DNA of 64,000 nt from Haloprofundus halobius (GCF_020097835.1 NZ_CP083666.1:1922001-1986000), one strand, 5' to 3'. Positions 17,982 through 29,663 are shown, counted from the first letter of the stretch. A program made the numbers and translations. Notes: a model not told the origin generated them from the letters alone.

Positions 17982-18076
17982 GTCGAACCCTTCCCCGAAG
18001 GAGAACGTCGATCCGAACGGGAACGTCGCTCCGCACAGAGCGAACTTGTTTACGACCTTGCGTTGGGCACTCGCCC

Positions 18077-19135
18077 ATGGCACGAGTGTTCAAATCTCCG
18101 GCCAGCTACGTACAGGGAGCGGGCGTCGCCGAACAGCTCGGCGAGCACACTACGGAGTTCGGCGAGTCGGCGCTGCTGCTCGCCGACGAGATCGTCCTCG
18201 ACATCGTCGAGGAGACGGTCCAGTCGAGCCTCGACGAGGCCGGTGTCGAGCTATCGACCGTCACGTTCGGGGGCGAAGCCTCCGAGACGGAGATAAACCG
18301 CGTCACCGAGGAAGCCGAGGAGCAGGAAGTCGACTTCGTCGTCGGCGCGGGCGGCGGGAAGACGCTCGACACCGCGAAAGCCGTCAAGGAGGAGGCGAAC
18401 GTTCCTGTCGTCTCGATGCCGACCGTCGCGTCGACCGACGCACCGACGAGCAGCCTCTCGGTTATCTACAGCGAACACGGCGAGTTCGAGCGATACCGGT
18501 TCTACTCGTCGCACCCCGAACTCGTGCTCGTGGACACGGAACTCGTCGCGGCGGCCCCGCCGCGCTTTTTCGTCTCCGGCGTGGGCGACGCGCTCGCGAC
18601 GTGGTTCGAGGCCGACGCGACCTCCCGCTCCGCGGGGACGACCATCTTCGGTGAGCGACCGACACGCAGCGGCCACGCCCTCGCGGAACTCTGCTACGAG
18701 ACGCTCCGCGAGCACGCGCTCTCGGCGGTGCAGGCCGTCGAGCGCGACGCAGTCACCGAGAGCGTCGAAGCCGTCACGGAGGCGAACACGCTCCTGAGCG
18801 GGCTGGGGTTCGAGAGCGGCGGCCTCGCGGCGGCACACTCGGTACACAACGGGCTGACGCAGTTAGAGGCGACCCACGACGCGACGAACGGCGAGAAGGT
18901 GAACGTCGGGACGCTGACGCAACTCGTCCTGGAAGGGAAACCGGACGCGTTCGTCCAGGATGTCGTCGAGTTCTCGGCGGCGGTCGGCCTCCCGGTGACG
19001 CTCGCGGACATCGGCCTCGAGGACCCGAGTCGCGACGACCTCGACCGCGTGGCCGAGGCCGCCTGCGTCGAGGACGAGACCATCCACAACGATCCGTTCC
19101 CGGTCGACCCGCGATGGTCCGCGACGCGTTGCTGA
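18077..19135 (+). CDS. gldA: Glycerol dehydrogenase, 3' end shifted out of frame
   Basis: A 352-residue NAD-dependent iron/zinc-type alcohol dehydrogenase. It has the nucleotide motif VGAGGGKTLDTAK, the SMPTVASTDAPTSSLSVIY segment and metal-ligand histidines in HSVHNGLTQLEATHDATNGEK. It oxidises glycerol to dihydroxyacetone. The frame ends abnormally with DPRWSATRC. In the next frame, from base 19114, 19 codons (MVRDALLTADALGEQVREE, stop at 19171-19173) restore the expected GldA ending after ETIHNDPFPV. One missing base near 19110-19113 (CCGCGATG in place of CCGGCGATG) explains this. It could be a real mutation, a recoding site or a sequencing error. A TATA-like GTTTACGA lies about 27 bp before ATG 18077. 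Confidence 0.93.
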   Translation: MARVFKSPASYVQGAGVAEQLGEHTTEFGESALLLADEIVLDIVEETVQSSLDEAGVELSTVTFGGEASETEINRVTEEAEEQEVDFVVGAGGGKTLDTAKAVKEEANVPVVSMPTVASTDAPTSSLSVIYSEHGEFERYRFYSSHPELVLVDTELVAAAPPRFFVSGVGDALATWFEADATSRSAGTTIFGERPTRSGHALAELCYETLREHALSAVQAVERDAVTESVEAVTEANTLLSGLGFESGGLAAAHSVHNGLTQLEATHDATNGEKVNVGTLTQLVLEGKPDAFVQDVVEFSAAVGLPVTLADIGLEDPSRDDLDRVAEAACVEDETIHNDPFPVDPRWSATRC

Positions 19136-19186: not shown

Positions 19187-20029
19187 TCAGTCCGCGCTCT
19201 CCGCCTCGCGCGCACGCTGACGTTGTCGGGACTCGTGCAGTTGCGCGCAGACGCCGCCCTGTCCGCGCATGTTCACCGACGCCAGGCGACCGCGGCGGCG
19301 GACGAGTTCGAACTCGTCGACCGAAATCGGCTCTCCCTCCGGCGTGCGGAACACCGGGCCCGACTCGAAATCAACGCCGACCGACTCGGCCTTCTCGACG
19401 TAGTCGACCAGCGAGTCGCGCGGGATACAGAGCCGTATCGCGCCGTCGGCGACCGAGACGACCGCCCGTTGGCTGCCGGGACCGTCGGGGTCGAACGTCA
19501 CGTCCGCGGTCGAGAGCGTGACGAGCTGCGCCGGCGTCGCACCGGCGTCGAGCAGCGCGTCGAGCGCGCGGTGCTGGCGGACGATTCGCGCCTTCCCGTC
19601 GAGCTCCCGTCTGACCGCGTCGAGGTCACCGTCGGCGTCGTCGAACGCCTCGGCGAAGGGTTGTCCCTCGTTGACGCCCTCGGTGAGTTCGGTCTCGTGG
19701 ACGTGGTCTTCGAGGACGACGCGGGCGCGGGCGACGCCGGGGAGCGACTCGACCGCCGCGCGCGCGTCGACCATCATGAGCCACGCGAACGCGGGCGAGC
19801 ACCACGCCGTCGGCAGCGAGAGGTTGACGGTCACCGATCTCCCGCAGCGGCCACTATCGGCGGCGTCGCTGTCGCCGTCGCCGAGGTCGATTTCGGTGAT
19901 GTAGTCGAGTTCGACGATGGAGCGGTCGAGTTCCGGGTCGGTCACGCCGTCGAGCGCGTTCAGGACCGCGGCGCGGCGCGGCGTGACCGCGCTCGGAGCG
20001 GACTCGCTCGGCAGACGTTCGCCCGACAT
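19187..20029 (-). CDS. MIP18/DUF59-type iron-sulfur (metallocofactor) assembly protein of monooxygenase-accessory type
   Basis: A 280-residue protein from ATG 20029. The N-terminal DUF59 domain (about 18-120) has VTDPELDRSIVELDYI and LPTAWCSPAFAWLMM with the conserved cysteine. The C-terminal half has ATPAQLVTLSTADV and ends near GGVCAQLH. From memory this long form, with WC-P-FA and the terminal C, is the version that accompanies amidohydrolase and alcohol dehydrogenase genes beside bacterial propane/acetone monooxygenases, where it may help assemble the diiron enzyme. The start overlaps the amidohydrolase stop by one base, so they form one operon. Confidence 0.85.
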   Translation of the reverse strand: MSGERLPSESAPSAVTPRRAAVLNALDGVTDPELDRSIVELDYITEIDLGDGDSDAADSGRCGRSVTVNLSLPTAWCSPAFAWLMMVDARAAVESLPGVARARVVLEDHVHETELTEGVNEGQPFAEAFDDADGDLDAVRRELDGKARIVRQHRALDALLDAGATPAQLVTLSTADVTFDPDGPGSQRAVVSVADGAIRLCIPRDSLVDYVEKAESVGVDFESGPVFRTPEGEPISVDEFELVRRRGRLASVNMRGQGGVCAQLHESRQRQRAREAESAD

Positions 20030-21084
20030 CAGTCTGCGGCCGCGTCGGCGGCGTAGTCGTCGCCGAGCCCGAACTGCTCGGAGATGGCGTCCGACTCGAA
20101 CTGTTTCTTCTTCTCCTCGATGTCGATGTCGTAGAGGCGAGCGGCGTTCTCGCCCATCACCTTCTTCAGCACGTCGGTCGTGAGTTCGACGCCGTACTCG
20201 TCGCGCTGCTCGGGCGTGAGTTCGGCCTCCATCACGAGTTCGACGAGCCAGTCGGGGTTCCACAGCGCGTAGTCGCTACCGAACAGCAGTCGGTCCTCGC
20301 CGAGCCAGTACAGCAGTTCGCCCATTATCTCGCCGAACTTTCGGGGTCGGTTCTGCACCATCGGCGCGGCGACGGCGAGACCGCCGTAGACGTTCGGTTC
20401 CTGCGCACCGATCCAGCAGAAGTCGTCGAGACGCGGGAGACCGACGTGCTCGACGACGAAGTTCAGTTCGGGAAAGGAAGTCGCCGCGTCGTCGACGTCG
20501 GCCACGTCAAAGGCGTCGCGGTTCAGCGGCCGAATCGTCGGTCCCTTGTGCGGGTGGACGTTCTCGATTCCGAGTTCGCTGCACTTCTCGAGGAACTCGA
20601 ACGTCTCCTCGTCGTCGAGTCGCCACCCCTTCGAGTCGCCCTTCCACTCCGCGGTGTAGAGCTTCACGCCGTCGACGTCGTACTCCTCCTTCTGGCGCTC
20701 TAACTCCCGCTTGCCCGCCTCGCCGTCGCGCGGGTCAAATCGTCCGTTGACGATGAATCGCTCGGGGTACTGTTCGACGAGTTCGGCGTTGTCGTCGACG
20801 GTGTTGAACCCCTCCTCGTAGAACTCGTGGAGGTGCGTCGGCTGGAAGATGGCCATGTCGACCGCGCCGTTGCCGAACAGGTCCTCGACCATCCGCTCTG
20901 CGCTGTACTTCCGGTACTCGTCGAGCGTCCACTGCCGGTCCTCCGGCGTAAAGCCCGTGTGGTAGTCGTAGAAACAGCGGATGAACTGCTCGCCGCCGTC
21001 GTTCTTGACGTTCTCCTCGCTCGCGTCCCAGTGGTGGACGTGCGCGTCGATGACGAACACGTCCTCACCGCGTTGTCGGTACAT
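20029..21084 (-). CDS. Amidohydrolase family (amidohydrolase 2) metal-dependent hydrolase
   Basis: About 351 residues from ATG 21084; a GTG at 21105 would add seven residues, but a TATA-like ATAATGTA around 21112-21119 fits the ATG. The TIM-barrel features include HxH in DAHVHHWD, the lysine-containing strand VDGVKLYTAEWKG, His in IENVHPHKGPTI, FVVEHVGLPRLDDFCW, and the final Asp in FGSDYALWNPDW. The family resembles the amidohydrolase encoded with soluble diiron monooxygenases of the propane/acetone type, where it is needed for productive expression or turnover. Its substrate is unknown. Co-transcribed with the DUF59 gene and divergent from the alcohol dehydrogenase. Confidence 0.88.
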   Translation of the reverse strand: MYRQRGEDVFVIDAHVHHWDASEENVKNDGGEQFIRCFYDYHTGFTPEDRQWTLDEYRKYSAERMVEDLFGNGAVDMAIFQPTHLHEFYEEGFNTVDDNAELVEQYPERFIVNGRFDPRDGEAGKRELERQKEEYDVDGVKLYTAEWKGDSKGWRLDDEETFEFLEKCSELGIENVHPHKGPTIRPLNRDAFDVADVDDAATSFPELNFVVEHVGLPRLDDFCWIGAQEPNVYGGLAVAAPMVQNRPRKFGEIMGELLYWLGEDRLLFGSDYALWNPDWLVELVMEAELTPEQRDEYGVELTTDVLKKVMGENAARLYDIDIEEKKKQFESDAISEQFGLGDDYAADAAAD

Positions 21085-21224
21085 GACGGACGGCTGTTCG
21101 GACACAAACTACATTATCTTTCGTTATGTTATCGGCGAGGAAAACACTATCGTAGAAGTGAGTTTCGTCCAGTTCTGTAAGTCCGAGAACAGTTTTACTT
21201 CTCCGAGTGACAGTAGTTACCACG
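21085..21224. promoter_or_regulatory. Divergent promoter region between amidohydrolase and alcohol dehydrogenase
   Basis: This AT-rich stretch in a GC-rich genome carries two outward promoters: ATAATGTA (minus strand, around 21112-21119) for the amidohydrolase operon and TTTTACTT (21193-21200) for the dehydrogenase at 21225. Shared control of the three genes is plausible. The core around 21118-21140 (TTATCTTTCGTTATGTTATCG) is rich in TTAT/ATAA and may hold an operator. Confidence 0.5.
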
Positions 21225-22262
21225 ATGCAAGCCGCGAGATTACACGAGTACACCGACGACATGGAGCACGCGCTGTCGATAGACGAAGTGGACCGACCGG
21301 AGCCGGGCCACGGTGAGGTTGTCGTCGAAGTCGAAGGCGCGGGATGGTGTCAGACTGACAATCATATAATCGAAGGAATGTGGACCGACTACGTCGACCA
21401 GGAGCTCCCGATGACGCTCGGCCACGAGAACGCCGGCACCGTCGTCGAAGTCGGCGACGGCGTCGAGACAGTCTCGGAGGGCGAGTCGGTCATCTGCCAC
21501 CCGGTGATGACCTGCGGGGTCTGTCGCGCCTGTCGGATGGGCGAGGACATGTACTGCGAGAACCTCACGTTCCCGGGACTCACGGCCGACGGCGGGTTCG
21601 CCGAGTATCTGCTCACCTCCCAGCGGTCGGTGATTCCGCTCCCCGAGGGGACCGACACCACCGACATCGCTCCGCACGCCGACGCCGGTATCACGGCGTA
21701 CCACGCCGCGAAGAAGGCCGTCCGCGAACTGAACCCCGGCGACCACGCCGTCGTCATCGGCGTCGGCGGCCTCGGCCACATCGGTCTACAGTGTCTGAAC
21801 GCGATGAGCGCCGCGAACATCGTCGCCGTCGACCTGAAGGACGAGGCGTTGGACCTCGCGACTGACCTCGGCGCGCACGAGACGGTGAACCCGACGAACG
21901 TCGACGTCGCCGACGCGATCGACGACATGACCGACGGCGCGGGCGCGCGGCAGGTGCTCGACTTCGTCGGGGCCGACCAGACGACCGGACTCGCGCCGGA
22001 CATCGTCTCAGCGGGCGGCGACCACCACATCATCGGCTACGGCGGCCACATCCACGAACCGTCGCAGGCGTTGGTCAACGGCGAGTTCAGCTTCATCGGC
22101 AACATCGTCGGCAAGTACACCGAACTCCAGGAACTCGTCTCGCTCGTGGACCGCGGCGACGTGGAGCTCCACACGTCCCGTTACGACCTCGACGACGTGA
22201 ACACCGTCGCCGAAAAGCTCGAGCACGGCGAAATCGAAGGTAGAGCCGTCATCACGCCGTAA
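21225..22262 (+). CDS. adh: Zinc-dependent NAD(P)-linked alcohol dehydrogenase (MDR)
   Basis: A 345-residue medium-chain dehydrogenase from ATG 21225 (MQAARLHEYTDD); an in-frame GTG at 21207 is less likely because the TATA box TTTTACTT lies 28 bp before the ATG. Catalytic zinc ligands are in GWCQTDNH and GHENAG. The structural zinc site is CGVCRACRMGEDMYC. The NAD-binding motif is IGVGGLGHIG. The stretch FIGNIVGKYTELQELV and the surrounding pattern resemble the secondary-alcohol dehydrogenase paired with propane/acetone monooxygenases. It faces the amidohydrolase/DUF59 operon across a shared promoter region, supporting a common pathway of alcohol or ketone metabolism. Confidence 0.94.
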   Translation: MQAARLHEYTDDMEHALSIDEVDRPEPGHGEVVVEVEGAGWCQTDNHIIEGMWTDYVDQELPMTLGHENAGTVVEVGDGVETVSEGESVICHPVMTCGVCRACRMGEDMYCENLTFPGLTADGGFAEYLLTSQRSVIPLPEGTDTTDIAPHADAGITAYHAAKKAVRELNPGDHAVVIGVGGLGHIGLQCLNAMSAANIVAVDLKDEALDLATDLGAHETVNPTNVDVADAIDDMTDGAGARQVLDFVGADQTTGLAPDIVSAGGDHHIIGYGGHIHEPSQALVNGEFSFIGNIVGKYTELQELVSLVDRGDVELHTSRYDLDDVNTVAEKLEHGEIEGRAVITP

Positions 22263-28616: not shown

Positions 28617-29663
28617 ATGTTCGACAAAACGACGTGGATAAAACTCCCGCGCAACGTCCTCGTCGGCCACGGCGTCGTCGACGAGCTGGCCGACGCGGTG
28701 GCGGAACTGCCGTTCTCGGGCAGTCCGCTCGTCGTCACGAGTCCGACGCCGAAGCGACTCGTCGGCGACCGGGTCTGCGCGCAGTTCGACGACCCGGCGA
28801 CGGTCACCGTCTCGGAGGCGAACTTCGCAGCCGTCGAACGCGTCATCGACGCCGCCCGCGAGACGGAGGCGGGCTTTCTCGTCGGTCTCGGCGGCGGCAA
28901 ACCCGTCGACATCGCCAAGATGGCGAGCGACCACCTGGGGCGAGGGTTCGTTTCGGTGCCGACGGCGGCGAGTCACGACGGCATCGTCTCCGGCCGGGGG
29001 TCGGTCCCCGAGGGCGACACCCGCCACAGCGTCGCCGCGGATCCGCCGCTGGCCGTCGTCGCCGACACCGAGTTACTGGCGGAAGCGCCGTGGGAACTGA
29101 CGACCGCCGGCTGTGCGGACATTATCTCGAACTACACCGCGGTACAGGACTGGCAGCTCGCCAATCGGCTGAAGAACGTCGAGTACTCCGAGTACGCGGG
29201 CGCGCTCTCGCAGATGACCGCCGAGATGCTCGTCGAAAGCGCCGACTCCATCAAACCCGGGCTAGAGGAGTCCTGCTGGATCGTGGTGAAGGCGCTCGTC
29301 TCCTCGGGCGTCGCGATGTCCATCGCCGACTCCTCGCGGCCCGCGTCGGGTGCGGAGCATCTCTTCTCGCACCAACTCGACCGCATCGCGCCCGGAAAGG
29401 CGCTGCACGGCCACCAGGTCGGCGTCGGCTCCATCATGACCGCCTACCTCCACAACGGGCCGAAAGGCGAGTGGCGCGACATCCGCGACGCGCTGGAGCG
29501 CATCGACGCGCCGACGACGGCGGCGGACCTCGGACTCACCGCCGACGAGGTGCTGGAGGCGCTGACGACGGCCCACGAGATTCGCGACCGGTACACGATT
29601 CTCGGCAACGGTGTCGACGAGCGAGCGGCCGAGGAAGTCGCGTCGGTCACCGGCGTCATCTGA
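28617..29663 (+). CDS. egsA: sn-Glycerol-1-phosphate dehydrogenase
   Basis: A 348-residue NAD(P)-dependent enzyme that reduces dihydroxyacetone phosphate to sn-glycerol-1-phosphate, the step that fixes archaeal lipid stereochemistry. The motifs are GLGGGKPVDIAKMAS (nucleotide binding), SVPTAASHDGIVSGRGS, and metal ligands Asp in CADIISN and His in ASGAEHLFSHQLD and LHGHQVGVGS. Length and order are those of canonical archaeal EgsA. It starts at ATG 28617 with its own upstream AT-rich patch. Confidence 0.96.
   Translation: MFDKTTWIKLPRNVLVGHGVVDELADAVAELPFSGSPLVVTSPTPKRLVGDRVCAQFDDPATVTVSEANFAAVERVIDAARETEAGFLVGLGGGKPVDIAKMASDHLGRGFVSVPTAASHDGIVSGRGSVPEGDTRHSVAADPPLAVVADTELLAEAPWELTTAGCADIISNYTAVQDWQLANRLKNVEYSEYAGALSQMTAEMLVESADSIKPGLEESCWIVVKALVSSGVAMSIADSSRPASGAEHLFSHQLDRIAPGKALHGHQVGVGSIMTAYLHNGPKGEWRDIRDALERIDAPTTAADLGLTADEVLEALTTAHEIRDRYTILGNGVDERAAEEVASVTGVI

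Follow-up and report, generated by a model that had tools for sequence, protein, structure and literature searches.

What do the accessory genes of a monooxygenase do where there is no monooxygenase? The window, a 64,000-nucleotide stretch of Haloprofundus halobius DNA (NZ_CP083666.1:1922001-1986000), holds adjacent genes for a DUF59 protein, an amidohydrolase (AMI) and a zinc alcohol dehydrogenase (ADH), which a sequence-only reading had likened to the accessory genes of bacterial propane/acetone soluble diiron monooxygenase (SDIMO) clusters. They could have been borrowed for secondary-alcohol or ketone metabolism, or they could assemble a diiron enzyme encoded elsewhere. All three genes are intact at 19187-22262.

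19187..20029, minus strand: DUF59/MIP18-like protein, 280 aa; Pfam PF01883 FeS_assembly_P 4.5e-11
20029..21084, minus strand: AMI, Amidohydro_2 (ACMSD-like) metallo-enzyme, 351 aa; PF04909 4.4e-47
21085..21224, no strand: AMI/ADH divergent intergenic region, 140 bp; presumed site of both promoters
21225..22262, plus strand: ADH, zinc alcohol dehydrogenase of the Aeropyrum-ADH (1h2b) subfamily, 345 aa; PF08240/PF00107 (ADH_N 1.5e-27, ADH_zinc_N 1.5e-21)

On the minus strand AMI comes first and DUF59 follows, with ADH divergent on the plus strand. Gene starts were refined by comparison with homologues: AMI starts at ATG 21084 (M8 of the long ORF, nearly invariant among homologues), DUF59 at ATG 20029, which shares 1 base with the AMI stop (TGATG), and ADH at ATG 21225. 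When words were counted in the 140-bp region for an operator shared by AMI and ADH, mainly coding-edge words and no clear palindrome were obtained. Incidentally, two glycerol-1-phosphate-dehydrogenase-like genes (Fe-ADH family) lie about 10 kb apart at 17990-19135 (+) and 28617-29663 (+), the latter with about 27% local identity to an orthologue of the former.

Relation to propane/acetone monooxygenase clusters

AMI is 48-58% identical to homologues from SDIMO clusters and stand-alone bacterial loci, and about 34% or less to other amidohydrolases. DUF59 is 25-37% identical to its bacterial counterparts. The motifs quoted in the sequence-only reading, HKGPT..PL..DAFDV.D.D of AMI and WCSP.FA.LM of DUF59 with its invariant C77, are kept in bacterial cluster proteins, and this sharing is far above chance. 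By identity, alignment and tree, AMI and DUF59 belong to subfamilies specific to SDIMO clusters. The best non-haloarchaeal AMI matches on plasmids lie mostly in operons with four monooxygenase genes, DUF59, GroEL and ADH. Across the bacterial and archaeal genomes scanned, SDIMO genes stand near AMI-DUF59 in 54 of the 80 best loci; of the 26 without an SDIMO neighbor, two (L108 and L123) come from short pieces of contig that break off inside apparent SDIMO operons. The same genes are listed for BCP1, RHA1 and Mycobacterium clusters (PMC4428276; PMC9213486). Identities, gene neighborhoods and published clusters thus bear out the proposed link of the trio to SDIMO-cluster accessory genes, most clearly for AMI and DUF59.

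As in the prm/mim clusters of Rhodococcus BCP1/RHA1, Mycobacterium and alphaproteobacteria, AMI and DUF59 are adjacent in the same order (PMC4428276), and the zinc ADH is of the same broad subfamily. Unlike those clusters, the locus has no monooxygenase, reductase, coupling protein, GroEL or sigma-54 regulator, its ADH is divergent, and the genome has no SDIMO. That monooxygenase subunits and GroEL are missing nearby was noticed earlier and holds over the whole 64 kb, where tblastn finds no homologue of an SDIMO subunit, reductase, MmoB or GroEL. The accessory genes themselves are known from published cluster maps; what is new is their SDIMO-free setting. On the function of the SDIMO-cluster amidohydrolase and DUF59 protein, the open papers searched give only gene maps and one proteome, and no measured activity was found there for any member of either family.

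The closest solved structures to ADH are the Aeropyrum pernix ADH (1h2b, 6e-99) and then Rhodococcus ruber ADH-A (3.2e-64), which belong with it to one group of medium-chain zinc ADHs. Its identity is 47-48% to two bacterial module ADHs, against no more than 34% in long matches with paralogues of its own genome. In a quick tree that gave long-branch warnings, haloarchaeal ADHs form their own clade, separate from A. pernix ADH and ADH-A, and A. pernix ADH falls on the bacterial side, which leaves a joint transfer of ADH and the pair unsupported.

Distribution of the pair, its partner and diiron oxygenases

The rest of the genome had been named as the place to look for SDIMO subunits. PF02332 (diiron hydroxylase subunits) has no match there and is positive in three control records; PF02406 (coupling protein MmoB/DmpM) has no match either, with its controls equally without one. 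Among 194 haloarchaeal genomes, an AMI orthologue (69% identity or more) occurs in 54 and an SDIMO in 2, and the overlap is 0. Nor is AMI associated with PaaA/PaaC, another multicomponent diiron oxygenase (34/54 versus 77/140, p = 0.34). The comparison, which among ferritin-like families covered PF02332 proteins and PaaA/PaaC, rejected both as diiron partners encoded elsewhere. When 24 bacterial genomes having AMI without an SDIMO neighbor were inspected, 15 had no SDIMO anywhere, although several are MAGs and possibly incomplete, and 9 had one elsewhere. With no SDIMO in the genome, no overlap among haloarchaea, no PaaA/PaaC association and many bacteria carrying the module without any SDIMO, the suggested role of the trio in assembling a distant diiron enzyme is left without support.

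DUF59 directly follows AMI in 43 of 43 haloarchaeal loci. ADH lies divergently upstream in 38 of them, downstream in 2, and is absent from the region in 3 (G116, G178 and G014), whose genomes have it elsewhere. An ADH orthologue is present in 98 of the 194 genomes, including 53 of the 54 with AMI, and 45 haloarchaea have ADH without AMI. AMI is thus nested in ADH (p 5e-19, by a statistic that ignores shared ancestry). The trio alone is conserved across families, with no glyoxalase or other pathway-defining neighbor conserved across haloarchaeal loci. The trio as originally described therefore survives as a conserved haloarchaeal neighborhood but not as a single unit: AMI-DUF59 is the unit, and ADH is an independent, more widespread partner. 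Because kinship and synteny were both found, the contrary possibility of three unrelated families with no conserved neighborhood in haloarchaea can be set aside.

In a genome of the same genus (G022), ADH and the flanks are kept in the same order, from the glycerol-1-phosphate-dehydrogenase-like gene through ADH, amine oxidase and threonine synthase, with about 225 bp where AMI-DUF59 would stand. Since the divergent layout is common to several families, loss is more likely than gain. In the AMI tree, a long-stemmed branch with full support separates the haloarchaeal sequences from the rest, which would fit a single early haloarchaeal acquisition, as the presumed direction, followed by losses. 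A lone E1-alpha-like gene (2-oxoacid dehydrogenase type, by eye) lies beside ADH in 12 haloarchaeal loci; it follows ADH even without AMI (L200, L201, L204) and was rejected as a pathway partner, being background synteny of one family.

Stand-alone AMI copies are found also in Chloroflexota, Bacillota, Poribacteria and alphaproteobacteria. Loci of Thermomicrobium, Thermoflexus, Thermogemmatispora, Chloroflexus, Acidiphilium and Bacillaceae resemble the present one in having AMI-DUF59(-ADH) with no SDIMO nearby. Acidiphilium has even the same divergent ADH / AMI-DUF59 layout, but its genomes contain SDIMO elsewhere. Unlike the locus here, stand-alone bacterial loci adjoin an IclR or sigma-54 regulator, CO dehydrogenase and transporters. 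The two genes are inherited together, the stop codon of AMI overlapping the start codon of DUF59, and the pair is found both in bacterial SDIMO clusters and, in many phyla, in settings without any SDIMO. From the non-overlap of AMI and SDIMO, the stand-alone bacterial copies, G022 and the nesting in ADH, the pair is a portable two-gene unit that serves no SDIMO here. Because the host and its relatives lack the monooxygenase, the three genes most likely make up a free-standing small alcohol/ketone pathway.

Predicted features of AMI and DUF59

With residues numbered from GTG 21105 of the long ORF and conservation taken over 62 sequences, the predicted metal ligands of AMI are H22 (62/62), H24 (61/62), H186, H220 and D278, in the pattern HxH...H...H...D, and all are kept in 61 of 62 sequences. 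The AF model of AMI (pLDDT 91.3; plasmid-collection sequences were left out of the structure-model input rows) matches 3irs (Z 25.5), LigW2 (21.9) and 2,6-dihydroxybenzoate decarboxylase (21.1). In TIM-barrel and metal-ligand pattern AMI is like the Amidohydro_2/ACMSD-like decarboxylases (LigW2, 2,6- and 2,3-dihydroxybenzoate decarboxylases, ACMSD, 3irs), with mostly 14-20% identity in structural alignments; among solved ACMSD-like structures only 3irs is reached by profile (E 1e-4). We infer the kind of reaction from this ACMSD/resorcylate-decarboxylase fold. In AMI of Peribacillus (L034) and Jeotgalibacillus (L170), which adjoins DJ-1/PfpI, the second His of HxH is replaced by Ala, possibly changing the metal site.

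DUF59 has an N-terminal FeS_assembly_P domain (residues 15-145) and a C-terminal domain (residues 147-255) resembling half of a tyrosine-recombinase core. In its AF model (pLDDT 91.8), the N-domain matches CIAO2B (Z 11.4), and the C-domain (19187-19630, minus strand) is similar to the first half of the catalytic domain in tyrosine recombinases (Cre Z 9.9, XerA 8.5, XerD 8.1). When the C-domain was compared with integrases of the same genome by hhalign, the expected segments did align, but only weakly (probability 3%, E 0.013); PF00589 gives hits to 2 of 62 family members, the better at E 0.09. The position of the recombinase catalytic Arg holds T/S/D, so that the C-domain would be inactive as a recombinase. 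C77, K146 and C261 are invariant and H109 is kept in 61/62, a pattern consistent with a predicted metal or cluster site; D31-P32-E33 (DPE motif) is conserved with C77. The N-terminal domain and its Cys are like those of MIP18/CIAO2B/SufT, but DUF59 goes on with a further C-terminal domain, about 130 residues long, in which a second Cys is invariant. The fold and these residues suggest that DUF59 may be an Fe-S/metal maturation partner.

Proposed pathway and rival explanations

Bacterial neighbors give hints on the substrate. AMI-DUF59 adjoins DJ-1/PfpI and GlcD/GlcF in Jeotgalibacillus, PfpI in Peribacillus, gloA and D-2-hydroxyacid dehydrogenase in Rhizobium N324, and gloA and aldehyde:ferredoxin oxidoreductase in one alphaproteobacterium, and the SDIMO/AMI/DUF59 cluster of Ponticoccus adjoins a VOC protein and a GMC oxidoreductase. 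In Methylacidiphilum IT6, acetone is routed through acetol and methylglyoxal to lactate by GMC oxidoreductase (acetol to methylglyoxal), glyoxalase I and Fe-S/FAD lactate dehydrogenase (PMC8630023). The glyoxalase-type and alpha-hydroxyacid-oxidizing neighbors, like VOC and GMC in Ponticoccus, are enzyme types of this route. Glyoxalases, GMC oxidoreductase and GlcD/GlcF would point to small hydroxyketone/2-oxoaldehyde catabolism, glyoxalase-type neighbors being found in a minority of bacterial loci, partly from related genomes. On the other hand, the paper on acetone use by IT6 is silent about any amidohydrolase (PMC8630023), so the pair may be dispensable for that route. In the actinobacterial A. 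chiangmaiensis DSM 45062, acetone and 2-HIBA both induce the Mim cluster, and in cells grown on 2-HIBA AMI accounts for about 3% of the proteome and Adh1 for about 6% (PMC7176365). These are enzyme-like amounts, although the chaperonin MimG is also at about 4% (PMC7176365), which makes high abundance compatible with an assembly role too.

The AMI model and ligands, the neighbors, the IT6 route and the DSM 45062 abundance favor a catabolic role on small hydroxyketones/2-oxoaldehydes. With moderate confidence, we take the locus to be a self-contained module that breaks down small secondary alcohols, hydroxyketones or 2-oxoaldehydes, and not a monooxygenase assembly line; the substrates would be of acetol/methylglyoxal/1,2-propanediol type. 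Borrowing for secondary-alcohol or ketone metabolism, one of the courses envisaged at the outset, is the best reading. ADH would use NAD(P) to oxidize a secondary alcohol or a hydroxyketone, and the metal-dependent AMI would act as a lyase, hydrolase or (de)carboxylase on the ADH product or a related small carbonyl compound, with DUF59 as its dedicated metal/Fe-S maturation or stability partner through C77, C261 and H109. In bacteria, AMI-DUF59 may have been plugged in downstream of the acetone/propane monooxygenase, and we propose that the pair stands in those clusters because it handles products of that enzyme. More tentatively, AMI-DUF59 could be an unrecognized two-gene enzyme system, a metallo-amidohydrolase and a MIP18-like maturation partner with an inactive recombinase-like domain, for a missing acetone/acetol or related C3 step, recruited into propane/acetone monooxygenase operons and acting alone in haloarchaea.

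Three other explanations were weighed. The pair could work in an unrelated pathway such as amino-acid or aromatic breakdown, with its link to alcohol incidental. The AMI fold is indeed common to aromatic-acid decarboxylases, and one Bacillaceae locus sits amid apparent peptide transporters, an amidase and peptidases. In Thermoflexus (L098, 8249-16822), DUF59-AMI-ADH continue into genes for aerobic CO dehydrogenase, whose coxL scores over the cut-off, XdhC and a MobA-like protein; this CO dehydrogenase neighborhood and the MetE-like neighbor in Poribacteria are each confined to a single lineage. An ADH of one subfamily is nevertheless adjacent in most haloarchaeal, Chloroflexota, Acidiphilium and SDIMO loci, and we regard an unrelated pathway as unlikely.

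AMI and DUF59 could instead be maturation factors, for metal insertion or Fe-S delivery, of an oxygenase or other metalloenzyme encoded elsewhere. Their place beside SDIMO genes in most of the best loci, in company with a GroEL annotated as maturing MimAC (PMC7176365), the CIAO2B-like Fe-S assembly domain of DUF59 and the SDIMO elsewhere in 9 of the 24 stand-alone bacterial genomes all speak for this. The genome here and all 54 AMI-positive haloarchaea nevertheless lack SDIMO, as do 15 of those 24; PaaA/PaaC is unassociated, and the two SDIMO-positive haloarchaea lack AMI and have an alpha subunit about 25% identical to the Prm type. A maturation role of this kind is thus quite improbable. Equally hard to credit is that AMI-DUF59 supports ADH itself as a housekeeping aid, by cofactor repair/recycling or removal of toxic carbonyls, and not as a pathway step. 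It would account for the nesting (53/54) and the divergent adjacency (38/43), but 45 haloarchaea keep ADH without AMI, and no homologous ADH adjoins the pair in Peribacillus, in Jeotgalibacillus, in Rhizobium N324 or at several loci of alphaproteobacteria.

The SDIMO-free genomes, above all the haloarchaea and the same-genus pair differing exactly by AMI-DUF59, separate the role of the pair from oxygenase assembly and make it testable; the interest of the finding lies in this isolation of AMI-DUF59 from the oxygenase. As a caution, AMI/DUF59 accessory genes are unsafe as markers of gaseous-alkane oxidation.

Two further observations were made among the haloarchaea. The SDIMO-positive genomes G064 (L207) and G095 (L208), both without AMI, each have a pair of PF02332 subunits, of which the larger shares only about 25% identity with Prm alpha, and haloarchaeal SDIMO may be worth a separate look. 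ADH orthologues with in-frame stop codons, probably pseudogenes, are found at L205 (G064:C1:1678666-1679715) and at places in G177, G155 and G165, so ADH may be decaying in some haloarchaea.
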